Source: Akkermansiaceae bacterium (GTDB taxonomy: Bacteria > Verrucomicrobiota > Verrucomicrobiia > Verrucomicrobiales > Akkermansiaceae). From it: a DNA stretch of 64,000 nucleotides. Below the pieces are notes generated by a model. It saw only the letters and a program-made list of their open reading frames with translations, had not been told where the DNA came from and made no database searches. Both the position numbers and the translations under genes were made by a program. Numbering within the stretch: position 1 is the first letter of the stretch; each line of letters begins with the position of its first letter. Below are positions 9,853 to 20,486 of this stretch, piece after piece. Location: assembly GCA_025354565.1 (NCBI GenBank), contig JANXMQ010000233.1, positions 22,722 to 86,721 of the forward strand, given 5' to 3'.

Positions 9853-11580
9853 TTACTTCTCGGGCAGCCATTCCCGCCAGCCGCCATATCCAGTGATTTC
9901 TTCAGCACCAACGGTCGCTCTCGGCTCGGCGATGAAGCCGGGGACTTCCTTGCCGCTTTCTAGCAAGACTTTGCCAATGCCTAACGGACCGGGAATTTCT
10001 GCCACGAAATCGCCAAACGCCGCACGCTCCAATTCCCAGACTTCCACGGTGATTGCCGCGCCATTCGCATCGTCCCGGATCAAGGCCGGGCGGGGTGGGA
10101 GCGAGCCATTGGCCGGCATCGCATACATTCGATAAACGGGAGCTGTCCGGGTTTTTTCACGCAACACCGCGCCGCGCTCCACGAGTTGCCAGTGCAAGGC
10201 GAGTCCCTCCAGATGCGCACCGCAGACGAGTAACGGAATCCTCTGTGACGCCTGTCTGTGACTGTTGATCGGCTCGCCGCAATATCTCCCGGCCAGTTCT
10301 ATCAATGCCACATCCCATCCGGCAGGAGCCGCCAGTGTCACGCCCCAGGGCGCGCGCCCGGACCTCGCCCGTCCGGCTGGCATCGCAACGGCGGATAGAT
10401 CCAGCAGGTTCATGAAATTGGTATAACGTCCAAGTACTGCATTCGTGACAAATGGATCCGCTAGATTTTCCGCGACAGTGTAGAGCCTCGGCGTAGTCGG
10501 CAGCAGCAGCACATCGATGTTTCCCCAAATGCCTTCCGCCTCCCGCGCGAATTCCCGCAGCTTGTATTGCGCCTTAAATGACGATGTCGCGTCCCAACCT
10601 TTCGATCCTTCCAAAATCTTGCGGGTCACTGGAAACACGGCATCGGGATTTTTTTCCACGAAGTCGCCAACCGCCGCCCAACGCTCGGCCACCCATGGTC
10701 CTTCGTAGAGGAGTTTCGCCGCTTCCGTGAATGGTGTTAGGTCGATCATCACCGGCCTGCCACCAAGCGCTTTCATCTGCTCCACCGCTGCCGCATAGAG
10801 TCCGGGTGTATCGGGGTCGTCAGCAAAATCAAGTGACTTCGGGACGCCGAAACGGAAACAGCTTCCGATCTCGCCAATGGGCGTCACATTGCGTGAGAAA
10901 ATATCTGTCGCATCGTAAATTCCGACCACCTGTGAGATCAGCAGGGCGTCCGCGGCACTGTTAGTGAACACGGAAATACAATCCAATGACCGACACGCGG
11001 GCACCAGGCCCCGGTTGCTCAACAACCCACGGGTCGGTTTCCAGCCAATCAATTCCTGGAACGCCGCTGGCACTCTACCAGAACCCGCCGTATCGCTACC
11101 TAACGAAAATACACATAACTCGGCGGCGACGGCCGATGCGCTGCCGGAACTCGAACCACCCGGTAGAAACTCAGCGGCGATGGCATTTCGCGGCACGCCA
11201 TAGGGTGAGCGGGTGCCGACGAGGCCGGTGGCGAATTGGTCGAGATTTCCCTTCGCAATTGGAATCGCCCCTGCCGCACGCAATAACCGGACAACCTCCG
11301 CATCCATTTCCGCGATAAATGAATACTCCGGGCAAGCCGCCGTCGTCGGCCAATTTTGCACGTCGATGTTATCCTTCACCACGAACGGGATTCCCCAAAG
11401 TGGCAGGTCGCGCGGCATTGCTTCCACGGCGGCTGCTAGAGTTAGAAGTTCAGGTTTCTCGGGCAGATGAATGAACATCGCGGGATCATTCCAATCGATG
11501 ATTTTTTGGTAAAGTTCATCGACGAGTTTGGACGGAGTGAAGCCGTCGGCGTAGCGGGATTTGAGGTCGTGGATTTTCAT
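9853..11580 (-). CDS. atzF: Allophanate hydrolase (amidase-signature enzyme)
   Basis: Amidase signature (GGSSSGSASAVAAELCVFSLGSDTAGSGRVPA) and C-terminal allophanate hydrolase region; adjacent to urea carboxylase. Confidence 0.92.
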   Translation of the reverse strand: MKIHDLKSRYADGFTPSKLVDELYQKIIDWNDPAMFIHLPEKPELLTLAAAVEAMPRDLPLWGIPFVVKDNIDVQNWPTTAACPEYSFIAEMDAEVVRLLRAAGAIPIAKGNLDQFATGLVGTRSPYGVPRNAIAAEFLPGGSSSGSASAVAAELCVFSLGSDTAGSGRVPAAFQELIGWKPTRGLLSNRGLVPACRSLDCISVFTNSAADALLISQVVGIYDATDIFSRNVTPIGEIGSCFRFGVPKSLDFADDPDTPGLYAAAVEQMKALGGRPVMIDLTPFTEAAKLLYEGPWVAERWAAVGDFVEKNPDAVFPVTRKILEGSKGWDATSSFKAQYKLREFAREAEGIWGNIDVLLLPTTPRLYTVAENLADPFVTNAVLGRYTNFMNLLDLSAVAMPAGRARSGRAPWGVTLAAPAGWDVALIELAGRYCGEPINSHRQASQRIPLLVCGAHLEGLALHWQLVERGAVLREKTRTAPVYRMYAMPANGSLPPRPALIRDDANGAAITVEVWELERAAFGDFVAEIPGPLGIGKVLLESGKEVPGFIAEPRATVGAEEITGYGGWREWLPEK

Positions 11581-11668: not shown

Positions 11669-14600
11669 TCAGGATTGTGATTTCACAATGACCAACGTTT
11701 GACCCGCCCTGACACTCGCGCCTTCGGCCACAAGTATTTCGACAATTTCGATCTCGTCATCCGCATCGACTGAGACTTCCATTTTCATCGCTTCCAGAAT
11801 CAGCGCCGTGGCTCCCTGTGCGATCCTCATGCCAGCCGTCACTTCGATTTTCCAAACACTGCCGGTCACCGGGCTGTCCAGCGTCGTGCAACCGTCGGGG
11901 ATCACAATTTCATCCACCTCGGCCATGACTTCCGGCGGTGCATCCATCGACAAATCGGCTTCCTCCCAGCGTTTTCTTTCAGCCTCAAAGGCGGCGCGTT
12001 GCCGGGTTTGGAAGGCGTCGATCCCGGTGGCGTTTTCCGATAGAAATTTCTGATAGTCGGCGTAACGGAAGATTTGCTCCTCGATCTCCAGCTTGTGTCG
12101 TCCACGCGGGACTTCCTCACGCAAACGGAGCAATTCCTCCGCGCTCACCGGATAGAATCGAAGCTGGTCAAAGAACCGCAGCAGCCATGGATTCTGGAAA
12201 TCCTCGGTCTTCCGCCAACGGTTCCAAACGGGAATCGTCCGTCCGGTGAACTGATAGCCGCCTGGGCCTTCCATGCCGTAAATGCAGAGATATGCCCCGC
12301 CGATTCCGACCGCGTTTTCCGGTGTCCAGGTTCGTGCTGGATTGTATTTGGTCGTGACCATCCGGTGCCGCGGATCGAGAGGAGTCGCTACCGGCGCGCC
12401 TAAATAGACATCGCCCAAGCCCATCACCAGATACGAGGCGGCGAAGAATATCTGATAGACCTCGGCGATGGAACTCAGCCCGTTAATGCGCCGGATGAAT
12501 TCCAGATTGCTAGGGCACCACGGCGCGTCAGGCCGCACGCTCTGCATATAGCGGCGGATGGCTTCCTGCGTGCTCGGGTCGTCCCAACTCAGCGGCAGGT
12601 GAACGACGCGGGTGGGCACTTCGATCTGATCTAACGGCGGCAGCGAAGTGATTCCCGCGCGAATTTTTCCCCACAAATCGCCGCGCCCGATCACACCAGG
12701 ATCAAAGTGAACTTGCAGCGAGCGAATGCCGGGTGTCAGGTCGATGATGCCGGGAATCCCATGTTCCTTCAACCACTCGTGAACAACATGAACCTTGAAC
12801 CGCAACTTCAAATCGAGATGGTGCGGGCCGAATTCGATGAGGAAATAGCGGTCGCCCGCGCGACGGACGACTATGGCATCATCGCCCACACCGAACGAGT
12901 CGATGAAGCAGGTACCGCGTTCAGTTTTTAGTGGATCGGAGAGCACTGGAAGTTCGCCTGCTAGAAATTGTGAGATTTCGATCTGGCGGTCGCGTGCCCA
13001 GGCTTCATCCACTGGCACAAACTCAATGTGATCGCCTGGCCGTAGTTGACCGAGTTTCCATAACTCCGCATCCACGACCACGACCGGACAAACGAAGCCG
13101 CCGAGACTTGGGCCGTCGGGCCCGAGAATGACGGGCATGTCTCCGGTGAAATCCACCGCGCCGATGGCATAGGCGTTGTCGTGCAAATTGGACGGATGCA
13201 GTCCCGCCTCGCCGCCGTCGGTGCGCGCCCATTTCGGCTTCGGGCCTATCAGACGGACGCCGGTTCTGGCGGAGTTGTAATGAACCTCCCATTTTGTGGC
13301 GAAGAAGGTGTCGATGTCTTCATCCAAGAAAAAGTCGGGAGAGCCGTGAGGGCCGTAGAGGACAGCGATTTTCCATTCGTGACTCATGGGCAGGGAACAC
13401 TCCTTCCTGCTACTTGAGCTGACGGGTCCTCTTCCCATCCCTAGCACATCTCCGGGCAGTAAGGCTCTGCCAAAGGGGCCGCCGAATCTTCCAAGCGTGA
13501 ACGTCGAGCAACTGCCCATATACTCGGGGGATTCGATCCCACCTGACACCGCCAGATAGGCACGTGATCCGCTGCCTTCGAATCTGCCGATCTTCAACAA
13601 ATCACCTGCCGTAATTTCAATGCGGCTATTCATTGCTACCGGCTCACCATTCTTCATCACCAGCGCACTGGCACCCACGATGGCGATGGTTGTTGCATGG
13701 TTAAATCGCAGCGTCGGCCCGGTCATGGTGATTTCCAATCCCGGCGCTCCTTCCGGATTCGCTACCATGCGGTTGGCGAGGCGAAGTGATAGGGAATCGA
13801 ACGGCCCGCACGGCGGCACGCCAACTTCCCAGTAACCAATACGCCCCGGCCAATCCTGCACCGTCGTCATCGTTCCAGCGGTCATCACGTCGATGGTGTT
13901 AGGTGTGTAGCAAAACTCCGCCATATCCCGCATCGCCACGCCGCCCATGAGATACGGCTCCCAGCGGGTGATGTCGCGCAGGTAACGGAGATTTGTTTCG
14001 ATTCCTGAAATCTTGGTTTCTTCCAGTGCCTTCTCGATCTTCGCAACTGCGGCAGCGCGGTCATCCGCCAGCACCATCACTTTGGCTAACAGCGGATCAT
14101 AAAACGGACTGACCTCGGTGCCCGGCGCGATCCAGCCATCGCAGCGCGTCCACTCGGGGAAACATGCTTCGGTTAGCAAGCCGCAGCTCGGGCGGAAATT
14201 GTGATTCGGATCTTCCGCATAGACGCGGGCTTGGATGGCGCAGCCTTTGGGTTCCGGTGCGCTGGCTGGCATTTCCCAATTTTCTTCAAGCGCGAGCCGG
14301 ACCATCCATTCCACGATGTCGATGCCGGTGACGAGTTCCGTAATACCGTGCTCGACTTGCAGACGCGTGTTCACTTCGAGGAAAAAGAAGTCATCTCGAT
14401 CTGCATCGTAGATAAACTCCACGGTGCCGGCGGAGCGGTAACTAACACTTTCTCCGAGTTTCACCGCAGCCTCATGCAGAGCGGCACGGGTTTTGTCTGA
14501 TAGACCGGGTGCCGGGGTTTCCTCGAAGACTTTCTGATTGCGGCGCTGGACCGAGCAATCGCGTTCGCCAAGAGCCAGCACCCGGCCTTTGCCATCGCCA

Positions 14601-15232
14601 AAGATCTGCACTTCCACATGTCGGCCACGTTGGATGAAGCGCTCGATGAACACACTGCCGGAGCCGAAACTCCGCTCGCTCAACCTCACCACGCTTTCAT
14701 ACTCACGTTGCAATTCCGCCTCATCGCGGCAAACTTTCATCCCGATGCCGCCGCCGCCCGCCGTGCTCTTCAGCATGACGGGATAGCCGATTTCCTTCGC
14801 TGCGATGACCGCCGCGTCGGCATTCTCCAACAGTCCGGTACCAGGAACTAATGGCACGCCCGCTTCTCCGGCGAGGCGGCGGGCTTCGTGTTTCAGGCCG
14901 AAGGCGATGATTTGTTCCGGCGTCGGTCCCATCCATCTAACACCAGCAGTTTCGCACATGCGGGCGAAGTCGGTGTTTTCACTGAGCAAGCCATAACCGG
15001 GAAATACCGCCATCGCTCTGGATACACGAGCGATGGCTAACAATTTATCCTTGAGCAGATAACTTTCAGAAACCGGACCGGGTCCGAGACGATGGGCTTC
15101 ATCCGCTAGATCGACGTGCGGTGCGCCGGAGTCGGGATCGGAATAGACGGCGATGCTTTTGTAGCCGAGTTTTTTGAAAGTGCGGATGGCGCGGGCGGCG
15201 ATCTCGCCTCGGTTTGCGATGAGGATTTTCAT
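11669..15232 (-). CDS. Biotin-dependent urea/guanidine carboxylase
   Basis: Biotin carboxylase N-terminus (MKILIANRGEIAARAIRTFKKLGYKSIAVYSD), central carboxyltransferase domains, C-terminal biotinyl motif (LILEAMKMEVSV). Confidence 0.95.
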   Translation of the reverse strand: MKILIANRGEIAARAIRTFKKLGYKSIAVYSDPDSGAPHVDLADEAHRLGPGPVSESYLLKDKLLAIARVSRAMAVFPGYGLLSENTDFARMCETAGVRWMGPTPEQIIAFGLKHEARRLAGEAGVPLVPGTGLLENADAAVIAAKEIGYPVMLKSTAGGGGIGMKVCRDEAELQREYESVVRLSERSFGSGSVFIERFIQRGRHVEVQIFGDGKGRVLALGERDCSVQRRNQKVFEETPAPGLSDKTRAALHEAAVKLGESVSYRSAGTVEFIYDADRDDFFFLEVNTRLQVEHGITELVTGIDIVEWMVRLALEENWEMPASAPEPKGCAIQARVYAEDPNHNFRPSCGLLTEACFPEWTRCDGWIAPGTEVSPFYDPLLAKVMVLADDRAAAVAKIEKALEETKISGIETNLRYLRDITRWEPYLMGGVAMRDMAEFCYTPNTIDVMTAGTMTTVQDWPGRIGYWEVGVPPCGPFDSLSLRLANRMVANPEGAPGLEITMTGPTLRFNHATTIAIVGASALVMKNGEPVAMNSRIEITAGDLLKIGRFEGSGSRAYLAVSGGIESPEYMGSCSTFTLGRFGGPFGRALLPGDVLGMGRGPVSSSSRKECSLPMSHEWKIAVLYGPHGSPDFFLDEDIDTFFATKWEVHYNSARTGVRLIGPKPKWARTDGGEAGLHPSNLHDNAYAIGAVDFTGDMPVILGPDGPSLGGFVCPVVVVDAELWKLGQLRPGDHIEFVPVDEAWARDRQIEISQFLAGELPVLSDPLKTERGTCFIDSFGVGDDAIVVRRAGDRYFLIEFGPHHLDLKLRFKVHVVHEWLKEHGIPGIIDLTPGIRSLQVHFDPGVIGRGDLWGKIRAGITSLPPLDQIEVPTRVVHLPLSWDDPSTQEAIRRYMQSVRPDAPWCPSNLEFIRRINGLSSIAEVYQIFFAASYLVMGLGDVYLGAPVATPLDPRHRMVTTKYNPARTWTPENAVGIGGAYLCIYGMEGPGGYQFTGRTIPVWNRWRKTEDFQNPWLLRFFDQLRFYPVSAEELLRLREEVPRGRHKLEIEEQIFRYADYQKFLSENATGIDAFQTRQRAAFEAERKRWEEADLSMDAPPEVMAEVDEIVIPDGCTTLDSPVTGSVWKIEVTAGMRIAQGATALILEAMKMEVSVDADDEIEIVEILVAEGASVRAGQTLVIVKSQS

Positions 15233-15271: not shown

Positions 15272-15901
15272 CTAGAAAATTAAAACCTCCACGGGCGTTG
15301 GATTCCAACCGTTGCAAGGATTGTTGAGTTGGGGACAGTTTGAGATGAGACAGACGACATCCATTTCAGCCCGCATTTCCACATATCTTCCGGGTGCGGA
15401 AATGCCATCGGCGAAGGTGAGTCCGCCGTCAGGGGAGACAGGGACGTTCATGAAAAAATTGATGTTAGGGCCGATGTCGCGTTTCGTCAGTTCGATGTCC
15501 CATTCCTGCGCGCCACGAATGAAAATATCGCGGCAGGCGTGCATGCATTCCTTGTCGTGGGCATAGCGCATGGTGTTGGATTCACGGGAGCAGGCTCCGC
15601 CGAGCGTATCGTGACGACCGCAGGTGTCGGCGGTGATGGTGAGAAGGGGGTTGCCTTCGGTGCTCATGAGCTTGGTGCCAGTCGTTAGATAAAGCGCTGA
15701 TTGTTCCTGGATGGTGCGGTCCGCGCTGTAGCGTTCGGTTGGATCGGCGGCGCTGAAGAATAGCGTGTCAGCCGCTTGGTTTCCTTCGAGGTCGAGGATG
15801 CGCAGGGTCTGGCCTTGTTTGATTTCATGAATCCACCAATCACCCGCGGGAATGACCTCGCGGAAGGCGGCGGACTCGGGTTGGAGCGTGCTAGCGGTCA
15901 T
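15272..15901 (-). CDS. DUF1989 urea carboxylase-associated protein 2 / possible carboxyguanidine deiminase subunit
   Basis: DUF1989-type sequence ([39 protein letters not shown]) and position. Confidence 0.88.
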
Positions 15902-15906
15902 GTCAG

Positions 15907-16623
15907 TTAGAATCGGAGCGAGTGATAGGCTTCATTGTTCTCCCAAGCGCGGAAATTTTCCGGGCGAATGACAAATGATGGGTCATCCGGGGTAGGAAGC
16001 TCGCCGGTTAATACTTCCAGTTTCACGGGCTGTTGGCGATAGACCGGATCCGGGTCGAGCGGGTGCTGGCAGGTGTTGAGCACGACGAGTGTATCGATTT
16101 CAAAACGAAGTTCTATCGAATCTCCCTGTTTTGAATTTTCGGAAACAAAGGAAAGTTTCCCCGTTTCATCCGCGACGACCTTGCTGAAAAAATTGAGGTT
16201 CGGGACGAAGTCTTTTTTGCCGAGTCCCCACTTGGCGAGTTCGATCAGAAAGCAATCTCGACCGTTGCGGTGCCAATCGTTGCGTGCATTCTGATAGTCG
16301 GATTTCCCATATTTCGCAAGGACTCGGGCGGCATCGGAATGACCACAGACCGTATCGTGCCAACCGACGCTGTCCGCCGTGATGGAGGCTAACAAGCGGC
16401 CCATGTCCGAGTGCAGGCAGTAGGGTGCGCGCAGGAAAAAGATATGTTGCCCTTTGAGCGTGTCAGGCATGTTGTAGCGTTCCTGACGTTCGAGCGCGTT
16501 GTATAGCAGCATGCTGACATTCGCTCCGCCGTTAATGTCGGTTAGGCGGAGGCGCTTGCCACGGGAGATGATGGCGGACCACATGCCGGCACCGTAGAGG
16601 GTTTTGGAGAGAATGGGAGTCAT
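15907..16623 (-). CDS. DUF1989 urea carboxylase-associated protein 1 / possible carboxyguanidine deiminase subunit
   Basis: DUF1989-type sequence ([23 protein letters not shown]); adjacent paralogue. Confidence 0.88.
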
Positions 16624-16642
16624 GGCGGAACAAAGCTGAGTT

Positions 16643-17119
16643 TCAGTCGCGGGTATCCTCCTCATCCGCTTCGGTCTGGATCTGAGGCATGAGGGTGCGG
16701 GTGAGATTGAGTCTGCCAGCCATCACCCCTCTGACTGCTAACAGACGGTTAGCAATCTGTCGGAGCCGTTTGGCCGGGCCTTGGACGAGGATGACTTCCA
16801 TGGTGCAGGTGTTTTGTAAAAGGACATGCAGCGAGCTGATCACTTCGCGGATATGTTCGTGCTGGATGTCCGAGATCTGTTGCTTGATGCCCGATCGTTT
16901 GTGATCGTAAAACAGAGTGATGGTTCCGGCCATCAAGGTGTTGCCTTTGAGACTGTAGTAATCGGCGATGTGCTGGGTGAGCACCTCAGCGACGGCTTGA
17001 GAACGGTTGACAAAACCGCGTTCGGTCATGAGTTGCTCGAACTGCCTGTGCAAGGCATCCGGTATCGAAATCGTCATACGGTGCGCGGTGGTTTCTGACT
17101 TGGTGCGGGTGGTTGCCAT
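16643..17119 (-). CDS. NikR-like ribbon-helix-helix transcriptional regulator
   Basis: [34 protein letters not shown] (RHH) followed by ACT-like NikR C-terminal domain ([16 protein letters not shown]...VRGVMAGRL). Confidence 0.9.
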
Positions 17120-17171
17120 GGGTTTGATATAGCGGCGGGAATCCCATAAGTATAAGCATTTCTAGAAAAAA

Positions 17172-17199
17172 GTATGATTTAAAATACTATTCCTCATAC
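17172..17199. promoter_or_regulatory. NikR-type operator GTATGA-N16-TCATAC
   Basis: Read directly: gtatga (17172-17177), tttaaaatactattcc (16 nt), tcatac (17194-17199). A candidate -10 TATACT on the minus strand lies at 17149-17154, ahead of the regulator start at 17119. Confidence 0.85.
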
Positions 17200-17207
17200 T
17201 ACAAATT

Positions 17208-18107
17208 TCACTCGACGCTGTCGTTCACATCGGTCATCCGGCCAATCGGTAATTTGTCGAATGATGGTTTCGCATGTGAGTCTTCCGGGTGAATAATGGT
17301 TTCGAGATGGCTTTTGGTGGCGAGGAATTCCGGGCTCCGAATCTGCTCGTGATCGCGCGGGCGGGGAACGGGGACCTCGACGATTTCGCGAATGCGGCCA
17401 GGCCGGGGATCAAGCACGAGGATGCGATCGGATAGAAAAATCGCCTCATCGAGATCGTGGGTGATGAAAAAGATGGTGATGTCGACGTTTTTCCAAATCT
17501 GGAGCAGGTAAGCCTGCATCTGCTGGCGGGTCTGCGGATCAAGCGCACCGAACGGTTCGTCCATCAGCAGAATGCGCGGCTCGTTGGCAAGGGCACGGGC
17601 GATGGCGGCACGCTGCTTCATGCCGCCGCTCAGTTGGTGCGGATAGGACTCCTCGAACTTGTCCAAGCCGACGAGCGCGAGCCACTGGCGGGCTTCGGAC
17701 TGATTGGTGAAATCGCTTTTCCCCGCCATGCGCGGGCCATACATGACGTTCTGTTTTACGGTAAGCCACGGAAACAGGGTGTAGCTTTGGAAAACCATGC
17801 CCCGGTCGCGACCGGGACCGATGACCGGATTTCCATCGACGAGAACTTGCCCCGCGCTGGGAGTTTCCAAGCCAGCTAGAATCCGGATGAGGGTGGATTT
17901 TCCGCAACCGGACTGACCGAGCACGCACATGAACTCACGACGGTGGACAGTTAGATTGATATCCTGCAGGGCGACGACTTCACCGGCTTTCGAGTGGAAG
18001 CGTTTGTAGAGACCTGATATTTCCAATAGTTTCGGGCGAGCTTTGAGCTTGTCGAAACGAGCCTTCACCCCAGGCGACTGGTCTTTGTAGGAGAGGCTCG
18101 CAATCAT
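17208..18107 (-). CDS. ABC transporter ATP-binding protein (nitrate/sulfonate/taurine type)
   Basis: Walker [26 protein letters not shown], Walker [13 protein letters not shown]. Confidence 0.95.
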
Positions 18108-19477
18108 GGAGAATCGAGGGTAGTGGCTGCTGCCGGGGGACTCGATGGGCCGAGGATCCTGCTTCTGGCAGAGAAAAACCGACCGAAGAATCCTTGCTTT
18201 GGCTGGTCAACCCAAGGGAAGAAGTAGCGGGCTAGGTAAGCGAGAATCTGGTCCATGAAAAATCCGGATAGACCGATGAGGAGGATGGCCGGATAGACAA
18301 TGTCGAACTGGAAGCGGCGGCCGTGAGTATCGATGATTTCCGCGAGGCCGCTTTTGAAGCCGAGAAGTTCCGCGATGACAAGCCAAGTCCAGGCGGTGCC
18401 GAAAAGCAGGCGCAGATCCTTGTAAAGGTTCGGCAGGATGCCGGGGAGGACGACGGTGGTGATGAGCTGCCGTTGGTTGGCGCCGAGAGTCTGTGCGGCT
18501 TCTAGCAGCGACCCGTCCAGGCCGCGGGTGGTTTTGGAAATAGTGAGAATCGCGGAGGGCAGGGTGCCGAGAAAAACGAGCATGATTTTCGGACCCAGAT
18601 CGAGGCCGAAGATCGCCATGAGCACCACTCCGAAAGCCGGGGCAGGCATGTAACTGAAGAAATTGACGAAGGGTTCGACGAGTTTTGAAACCAGATCGAA
18701 AGTGCCTGCCAGGACGCCGATGGGAATAGCGACGAGGATGGCCAGGAGAAATCCGAGAACGATGGTGCGCCATGATTCACCGTAGCGCTGGAGCAGAGAT
18801 TTGCGCTCGGCGTTTGCATCGCCTTCCTCGGGTTTTCCGGCGGTGATGCCTTTCCAAAATGAGACTGCGACGACATCGGGTGGAACCAAATAGACCGGGC
18901 GGGAAACCTCTTCGATGGACTCCGGTAGGAGTTTGAGGAGCGTTTCCTTAGGATATTCGGTGCCTGCTTTGGCGAGCATTTCGGCGTTCGATTTGATGAT
19001 CGCCAGATTCTCCGTAGAGAGCGGCTGTTTCTTGGCTTTCAGCTCGCCGGCCGCGACTTGAAGCCATGTTTTGCGGATTGCCTCATCATCAATCTCCTGC
19101 TCGCGGGTGAGCCAACTGTTAGCGATAGCCAGCGGATGGATCTGACGGAGGATCTTCTTGTTTTGTCGTGCGGAACCGGCGGTTGGCTGGCCACTTTCCC
19201 GGGCAGCCATGATTTCCCTGTTGTCTTGGGCGATAGTCGTTGTGAAATCTTTCCAGATGTTAGGTGTGAGGCGGTCGCCTACGGAATAGACGCTCTGGAG
19301 ACGGGGGCTTTCCGCAGAGAGGGAGATCTGTCGTGCGACCTTCCACCACGGGCCATAGGAGGCGATGGCCCAGATGACTAGCGGAAGAACGAATGACAGC
19401 GCCATCATCAGCGATGAGCGCGTGTGGTCCAAGTCCTTCCTCACCATGAACCATCGACCTGCGGTTGGGGATTTCAT
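18104..19477 (-). CDS. ABC transporter permease (NrtB/SsuC/TauC type) with large N-terminal insertion
   Basis: C-terminal BPD-transp-1 domain with [32 protein letters not shown]; overlaps the ATPase gene by 4 bp. Confidence 0.9.
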
Positions 19478-19508
19478 GGCAAGAGGAAGGCCTGTGGCAG
19501 GATCCGAT

Positions 19509-20486
19509 CTATTTAGCCAGTGCTTCCTTGGTGAGCGTGGGATCGAAGTAGGAACCAACGTCTGCTGGTTTCGCGTAAACTTTGTATTTCACGTTGAAGT
19601 CATCCACCACTTTCGAAGAGCCATAGATTGAGCCGAGGCCATCGGCTTTTGCCCATACCTTGATCGCCTCGGCGGGGGTTAGGATTTTGGTGCCAGCGAA
19701 GAGCGGTTCGTATTCCGCAGGTTTCACGCCGACGCGCTCGGAGAGGATGGCAAGGGCTGCATCCATGTTGTCCTCTTTCGCGAGGTATGCGGCGATGCGG
19801 TACCAGACTTTCACCACCTTGATCCAGTCCGCGCGATGGGCTTTCACGCTGTCGCGGTCACAGAACAGTCCGTCATAGATCAGGCCGGGAGCATCCTTTG
19901 AAGAGAATACGGTTTTTGAACCGGGTACCAACTTGAGGGCTTGGCCGGAGTTGGGTTGCCATGCTGCGATGGCTTCTACTTGACCGGAAGAAAATACCTG
20001 CGGTGTGCTGTTCGTTGGAGTGTTTTTGATGGTGATGTCAGTTTCCGCCATGCCGTTAAGTTCGAGGCCTTTAAGGAGCAGCAGGTGTTCGACAAAGCCT
20101 TCCTCCAACGCGATGGTCTTGCCCTTGAGATCCTTGAGTGTTTTAAAATCACCCTTCGCGACAATCATATCATTGCCATTGGAATAATCATTAAGAAGCA
20201 CACAGACGGATGGTTTGCCGGTGGCACCTGTAACGAGTGCGTCGCCATTGGTCACGCACACGGCATCGAGCTTGCCGGCGGCGTAAGCCTCCATGGATTT
20301 CACATAATCCATCCAGACGAATTCAACATCGACACCGGCTTCCTTGAACCAGCCTTTTTTGATACCAATTTCCCATGCGACCCAGCCGGGCCAGTCTGAG
20401 TAGCCGATTTTAAGCGGTTCCGCCTTGCCGAGAAGGGATGACAAAAGCAGCAGGGATGCGAGCAGAATGGTCGTGCGTTTTTTCAT
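19509..20486 (-). CDS. ABC transporter substrate-binding protein (NMT1/THI5/TauA-like)
   Basis: Signal peptide; [37 protein letters not shown]; first gene of the cluster. Confidence 0.9.

Follow-up and report, generated by a model that had tools for sequence, protein, structure and literature searches.

The window (the whole 64,000-nucleotide stretch that was analysed) holds a cluster of genes, all on the minus strand, in which a palindrome separates a predicted importer from a regulator and a set of catabolic enzymes. In the direction of transcription, the importer genes encode an ABC substrate-binding protein (19509..20486; TIGR03427-like at 166.8 bits, under the cut-off of 333.9), a permease (18104..19558; PF00528) and an ATPase (17208..18107; PF00005), the last conserved in the cluster and predicted to serve guanidine/urea import. 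Beyond the palindrome lie a NikR-like RHH/NikR_C regulator without the nickel ligands His89 and Cys95 (16643..17119; PF08753, 87.8 bits against a cut-off of 22), two DUF1989 proteins assigned as carboxyguanidine deiminase subunits, UAAP1 (15907..16665; TIGR03425, 309 bits, cut-off 206) and UAAP2 (15272..15901; TIGR03424, 328 bits, cut-off 285), a guanidine carboxylase annotated as urea carboxylase (11669..15232; TIGR02712, 1764 bits) and an allophanate hydrolase (9853..11580; TIGR02713, 684 bits, cut-off 511). The order from ATPase through operator, NikR-like gene, two DUF1989 genes and carboxylase to allophanate hydrolase had been given correctly in the first-pass annotation.

The carboxylase can be typed by two residues. 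Asp at K. lactis position 1330 marks the guanidine type and Asp1584 is required (PMC11410670), whereas urea carboxylases carry Asn at the discriminating position (PMC12186494). In an alignment with 5i8i/3va7, the equivalents of both 1330 and 1584 are Asp in the window enzyme (GAVDFTGD; GLGDVYLG). Regulator-linked carboxylases that were readable at the key residue have Asp in 28/28 cases, the Asp/Asn regular expression having missed some enzymes that were left unread (e.g. L039, L040, L042, L048, L077). The lone Asn enzyme (L084) is an additional carboxylase with neither CgdAB nor a regulator. UAAP1 and UAAP2 correspond to the carboxyguanidine deiminase CgdAB and, like the allophanate hydrolase, adjoin the carboxylase. 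Since the guanidine-type Asp occurs together with CgdAB and allophanate hydrolase, the cluster is expected to degrade guanidine and, judged from its genes, is a guanidine operon. A nitrogen pathway through a biotin-dependent carboxylase for urea or guanidine and allophanate hydrolase had been proposed; the pathway stands, with guanidine and not urea as the substrate that the residue indicates.

The predicted operator GTATGA-N16-TCATAC occupies 17172..17199 (unstranded) with 0 mismatches, as two RHH-dimer half-sites whose centres are 21 bp apart; the sequence at 17170-17202 is AAGTATGATTTAAAATACTATTCCTCATACTAC. The arms of the palindrome reach one base further on each side (AGTATGA...TCATACT), and it sits between the stop of the ABC ATPase gene and the start of the NikR-like gene, 53 bp upstream of the latter. 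It is an inverted repeat of the 27-28 bp kind found in NikR-family operators and, as had been noticed at the outset, it is identical in half-sites and spacing to the nik operator of E. coli (PMC7055735). Published NikR motifs comprise GTATGAT-N13/14-ATCATAC and GTGTTAC-N13/14-GTAACAC, and everted forms as well (PMC545781). From the comparison with relatives described below, the window operator is an enterobacterial-looking variant of a broader clade-wide motif (GTATGAC/GTATTAC).

A candidate -10 element, TATACT, can be read on the minus strand at 17149..17154, 17 nt from the near half-site. It lies where the first-pass annotation had placed it, although the promoter scan scored no sigma-70 promoter there. 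With a 17-nt spacer, its -35 position coincides with the proximal half-site at 17172-17177, a geometry that would be expected for repression: a tetramer on the operator should obstruct the promoter from which the regulator, cgd, carboxylase and hydrolase genes would be transcribed.

The search for more sites found no further exact copy of GTATGA-N16-TCATAC in the 5.1 Mb genome. Within the window the operator is also the sole match at ≤2 mismatches, but the looser pattern is uninformative by itself because about 0.7 window matches are expected by chance; across the genome it gives 42 matches against 36 for a reversed-pattern control. The two 1-mismatch sites of the genome (L003, L004) both fall within ORFs and were rejected as further regulon members. 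The regulon thus seems confined to one locus in this genome and, with looser genomic matches at chance level, conservation in relatives becomes the deciding evidence.

The NikR-like regulator and its nickel ligands

The regulator combines an N-terminal RHH domain with a C-terminal NikR_C domain, the fold that defines the NikR family, and is the sole NikR_C-containing gene in its genome. It scores 118.6 with NF003381 (cut-off 105) and 69 with TIGR02793, under the cut-off of 175. Its AlphaFold (AF2) model has a pLDDT of 87, the top Foldseek matches are NikR structures, and the closest solved relative is PhNikR. The PF08753 score, the Foldseek matches and the exact palindrome together support the pairing of a NikR-type operator with a NikR-fold regulator proposed for this locus.

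In NikR, nickel is held by His87, His89 and Cys95 together with His76 of the neighbouring subunit (PMC7055735). The window protein, aligned with solved NikRs, has His, His, Leu and Thr at positions 76, 87, 89 and 95, and so differs from the ligand set of nickel-responsive NikRs (the E. coli and P. horikoshii references were entered by hand, and their agreement with the solved chains was seen in the alignment). The difference extends to the whole cluster-linked clade: Cys95 is present in 0/116 members versus 37/37 canonical NikRs, in all 37 of which the HHHC set is intact. The canonical set comprises NikRs whose genomes have no carboxylase or whose genes are not linked to one, and excludes L070, a protein that has lost the ligands and is cluster-unlinked. 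One of the two scan patterns specifies position 95 as T/R, so the 0/80 for Cys95 in the scan set is not independent; the count in the family-based Pfam set is independent of that pattern. Metal-linked control, which had been suggested for this locus, is made unlikely by the changes of His89 to Leu and Cys95 to Thr and by the clade-wide disappearance of Cys95.

Cluster-linked regulators form a single clade, with support of 100/99 in one tree and an SH-aLRT of 100 in a wider tree (153 rows less three wrongly cut rows). In the wider tree Cys95 changed once, and His76, His87 and His89 changed at least 5, 8 and 7 times, respectively; such repeated changes would be expected of a metal site that is no longer needed. 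His87 is retained in 96/116 clade members and some subgroups keep three histidines, so that some HHHT/HHHY members could still bind a metal. Elsewhere the ligand sets include RHLV, RHLI, RQMN and HNNS, with operator and gene context unchanged. DNA-contact residues are kept: Arg3 is present in 116/116 members, and positions 5 and 7 are Ser or Thr. The members also share a new C-terminal tail whose Pro is invariant (116/116 versus 1/37 canonical NikRs). The alignments thus indicate that the clade lost the nickel-binding site and kept the DNA recognition site, and annotations of its members as 'nickel-responsive regulator' are probably wrong.

Two further NikR-like proteins deserve mention. L070 (9785-10216) is very divergent, with N, R, T and S at the ligand positions, and lies outside guanidine clusters; its genus (f22 g70) has low-scoring NikR_C matches in several genomes. 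In a complete same-genus genome (G255), the NikR-like ORF at L037:9851-10174 breaks off inside NikR_C, possibly through a frameshift, although the cluster is intact in other respects.

Operator conservation and linkage to guanidine genes

Loss of the palindrome from orthologous loci had been named beforehand as grounds for refutation, and the palindrome proved to be conserved. Orthologous clusters carry two pseudo-palindromic 7-mers (GTATGAC/GTCATAC/GTATTAC/GTAATAC) with centres 21 bp apart, the E. coli geometry. The motif-defining set comprises 99 upstream regions taken from 35 clusters, and 49 of these have matches of ≥12/14 at this distance; mononucleotide shuffles give a mean of 1.1 and a maximum of 4, and other spacings 0-10 regions. 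An independent set of 80 loci came from a separate genome-contig scan with a 9-sequence subset, as the full 36-sequence alignment gave no conserved stretch. Here a site of ≥13/14 is present in 64/80 loci (shuffles 0-2) and a perfect site in 42/80 (shuffles 0); other spacings give 0-6 and 0, respectively, except for spacing 22, with 12 and 4. These loci belong to Verrucomicrobiota and to Gamma- and Betaproteobacteria (Methylovorus, Methylobacillus, Sinimarinibacterium, Thiogranum and others). Conserved sites precede a transporter/importer gene, the regulator gene or the deiminase gene cgdA, and the motif is found in 0/9 carboxylase clusters without a NikR-like regulator. The same motif lies immediately 5′ of nikR for several of the phylum's canonical NikRs (e.g. 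L016, L025), which makes it probable that the operator's DNA code was inherited from NikR ancestry.

An unbiased Pfam family search finds NikR_C in 135/388 genomes of the phylum. In the fetched neighbourhoods from the window's class, NikR_C genes lie in or beside the ABC/CgdAB/carboxylase/allophanate hydrolase cluster with one exception, L050:4495-4830 (G085), a truncated NikR-like remnant of the HHHY type in a genome without guanidine carboxylase and an apparent case of regulator decay after operon loss. The class tally is 28 genomes with carboxylase and regulator (two of them with a carboxylase that is split or truncated where a contig ends), 2 with carboxylase only (G211, G293) and 1 with the remnant only.

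Guanidine sensing and the proposed repressor

Known guanidine riboswitches are distributed unevenly among the clusters with this regulator. At the Rfam gathering threshold, no guanidine riboswitch (Guanidine-I, II or III) was found in the window, and Rfam reveals none in the 16 verrucomicrobial clusters searched (window plus 15 loci). Proteobacterial loci have one in 11/18 cases, Guanidine-II directly 5′ of the carboxylase in 9/18 and Guanidine-I 5′ of a divergent cgd gene in 2/18, and in such clusters the NikR-type operator usually precedes the importer. Nine regulator-less carboxylase clusters were examined and lack a known riboswitch too, so other control exists. Among clusters of this kind, L078-L083 combine a guanidine carboxylase with two UAAP2-like genes and have no NikR-like regulator, operator or Rfam riboswitch.

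We consider it most probable, at roughly 0.6, that the regulator is a nickel-blind, NikR-descended repressor of its own gene and the guanidine genes, with an operator laid over their promoter and most likely relieved by a molecule of the pathway. Such a repressor would control, besides its own gene, the downstream CgdAB, guanidine carboxylase and allophanate hydrolase and, in many relatives, the guanidine importer as well. It would occupy the two half-sites in the manner of NikR, with a C-terminal domain devoid of the square-planar nickel site. DNA binding would most likely be switched by a small molecule, guanidine being the first choice and carboxyguanidine or allophanate the next, and the presence of guanidine would release the repressor. 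Relief by guanidine or a pathway intermediate is probable, as it accounts most simply for the linkage to the pathway and for the seeming lack of another sensor in Verrucomicrobia.

A stronger form of this proposal is that the clade would be the first transcription factor known to sense guanidine, its nickel pocket turned into a guanidinium or carboxyguanidine pocket and its operator inherited. We hold this form tentatively and lean a little against it. A residue set that accounts for a guanidinium pocket was not found in the clade, where Glu102 is common and is replaced by Gln in the window protein. According to a 2025 review (PMC12186494), regulatory proteins that bind guanidine are not yet known, and in the open-licence literature we found no published link of NikR with guanidine, urea carboxylase or allophanate hydrolase. 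Almost always placed on guanidine genes, the clade is a candidate for the first switch of guanidine metabolism made of protein and not RNA. If so, it would fill in Verrucomicrobiota the role that riboswitches have elsewhere, and share that role with them in Proteobacteria. The candidate is widespread, has a defined operator and is testable in cultured Methylovorus, Methylobacillus and Pelagicoccus.

Alternative readings and related systems

The main rival to relief by guanidine, in our judgement unlikely, is a regulator that has no direct pathway effector or that answers nitrogen status (glutamine/2-oxoglutarate via its ACT-like domain), so that nitrogen limitation, and not guanidine, tunes the cluster. 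It stays in play because glutamine synthetase genes occur inside some clusters. The regulatory domain is ferredoxin-like and of the ACT-like kind, and such domains often bind amino acids. Moreover, guanidine sensing by riboswitches is already in place in proteobacterial clusters with the same operator, so the protein there may signal another condition, such as nitrogen status. Against this, Rfam reveals no other guanidine sensor in verrucomicrobial clusters, and a regulon of apparently one locus is unlike that of a nitrogen regulator. In addition, where the operator precedes the importer in Gammaproteobacteria, it takes the place that Guanidine-I has in Raoultella and relatives (PMC12186494).

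Nickel economy, in which nickel-loaded NikR represses a nickel-independent nitrogen pathway as long as nickel enzymes suffice, is improbable. The E. coli-type operator would suit it, as would urease in 23/28 regulator-bearing genomes of the class and the NikR control of a nickel-independent hydrogenase predicted elsewhere (PMC545781), but 5 regulator-bearing genomes have no urease. A search of the window's genome for urease and nickel guanidinase, suggested at first pass, had this outcome: there are two urease alpha genes, G000:C102:35730-37439 (L090) and G000:C174:32983-34692 (L091), with no canonical NikR, and there is no PF00491 (ureohydrolase) protein, hence no known type of nickel guanidinase. 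Urease does not degrade guanidine. The two ureases act on urea and the carboxylase is of the guanidine type, so the genome offers no nickel enzyme for the same substrate, and the nickel-dependent alternative thought to stand behind the pathway falls away. The sole exact site precedes guanidine genes, not genes for nickel uptake or nickel enzymes. We rejected nickel economy on the loss of ligands, the guanidine-type enzyme and the absent guanidinase.

Slightly less probable still is a rebuilt site that binds and reports another metal (Cu, Zn or Co). The retained His87 and the three-histidine subgroups would allow for it, but no one metal could be bound by sets as different as RHLV, RHLI, RQMN and HNNS, among which operator and context stay constant, and the window cluster has no recognisable metal-handling gene. 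That the palindrome is a chance match beside a NikR-like gene has a negligible probability: a simple calculation predicts about 0.3 occurrences of a given 12-base match in 5 Mb, but conservation of position and spacing across phyla refutes it.

The nickel-blind repressor favoured here resembles the NikRs of E. coli, P. horikoshii and H. pylori in its RHH and NikR_C fold, its 28-bp operator of two half-sites and, in Verrucomicrobiota, the location of the operator 5′ of the regulator gene. It differs from them in that the clade lacks Cys95 and usually His89 and His76, bears the C-terminal tail, and would target guanidine catabolism instead of nickel uptake. Guanidine-I/II riboswitch operons (Raoultella, Klebsiella, Pseudomonas) likewise join importer, CgdAB, guanidine carboxylase and allophanate hydrolase, but here a protein operator is present, with no known riboswitch in Verrucomicrobia and mixed control in Proteobacteria. 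A nickel regulator over a nickel-free route has parallels in the predicted NikR control of nickel-independent hydrogenase in Desulfovibrio and in Nur-controlled SOD switching; those regulators are nickel-responsive, whereas the clade has no nickel site. New here is a NikR fold and operator, minus the nickel site, on a new pathway, as if a metal sensor had been recruited with its metal ligand lost and its DNA code kept.

Some clusters and their surroundings hold further genes. Urease genes adjoin the guanidine cluster in several genomes (L044, L045, L053, L038, L057, L066). Glutamine synthetase-like genes lie in the clusters of some relatives (L047:14634-16004, L143:6379-7905); an operator copy (14616) marks the start of the one in L047. 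Rieske-type oxygenase genes occur in others (L036:8341-9549, L104:3086-4669), possibly for methylguanidine or similar compounds.
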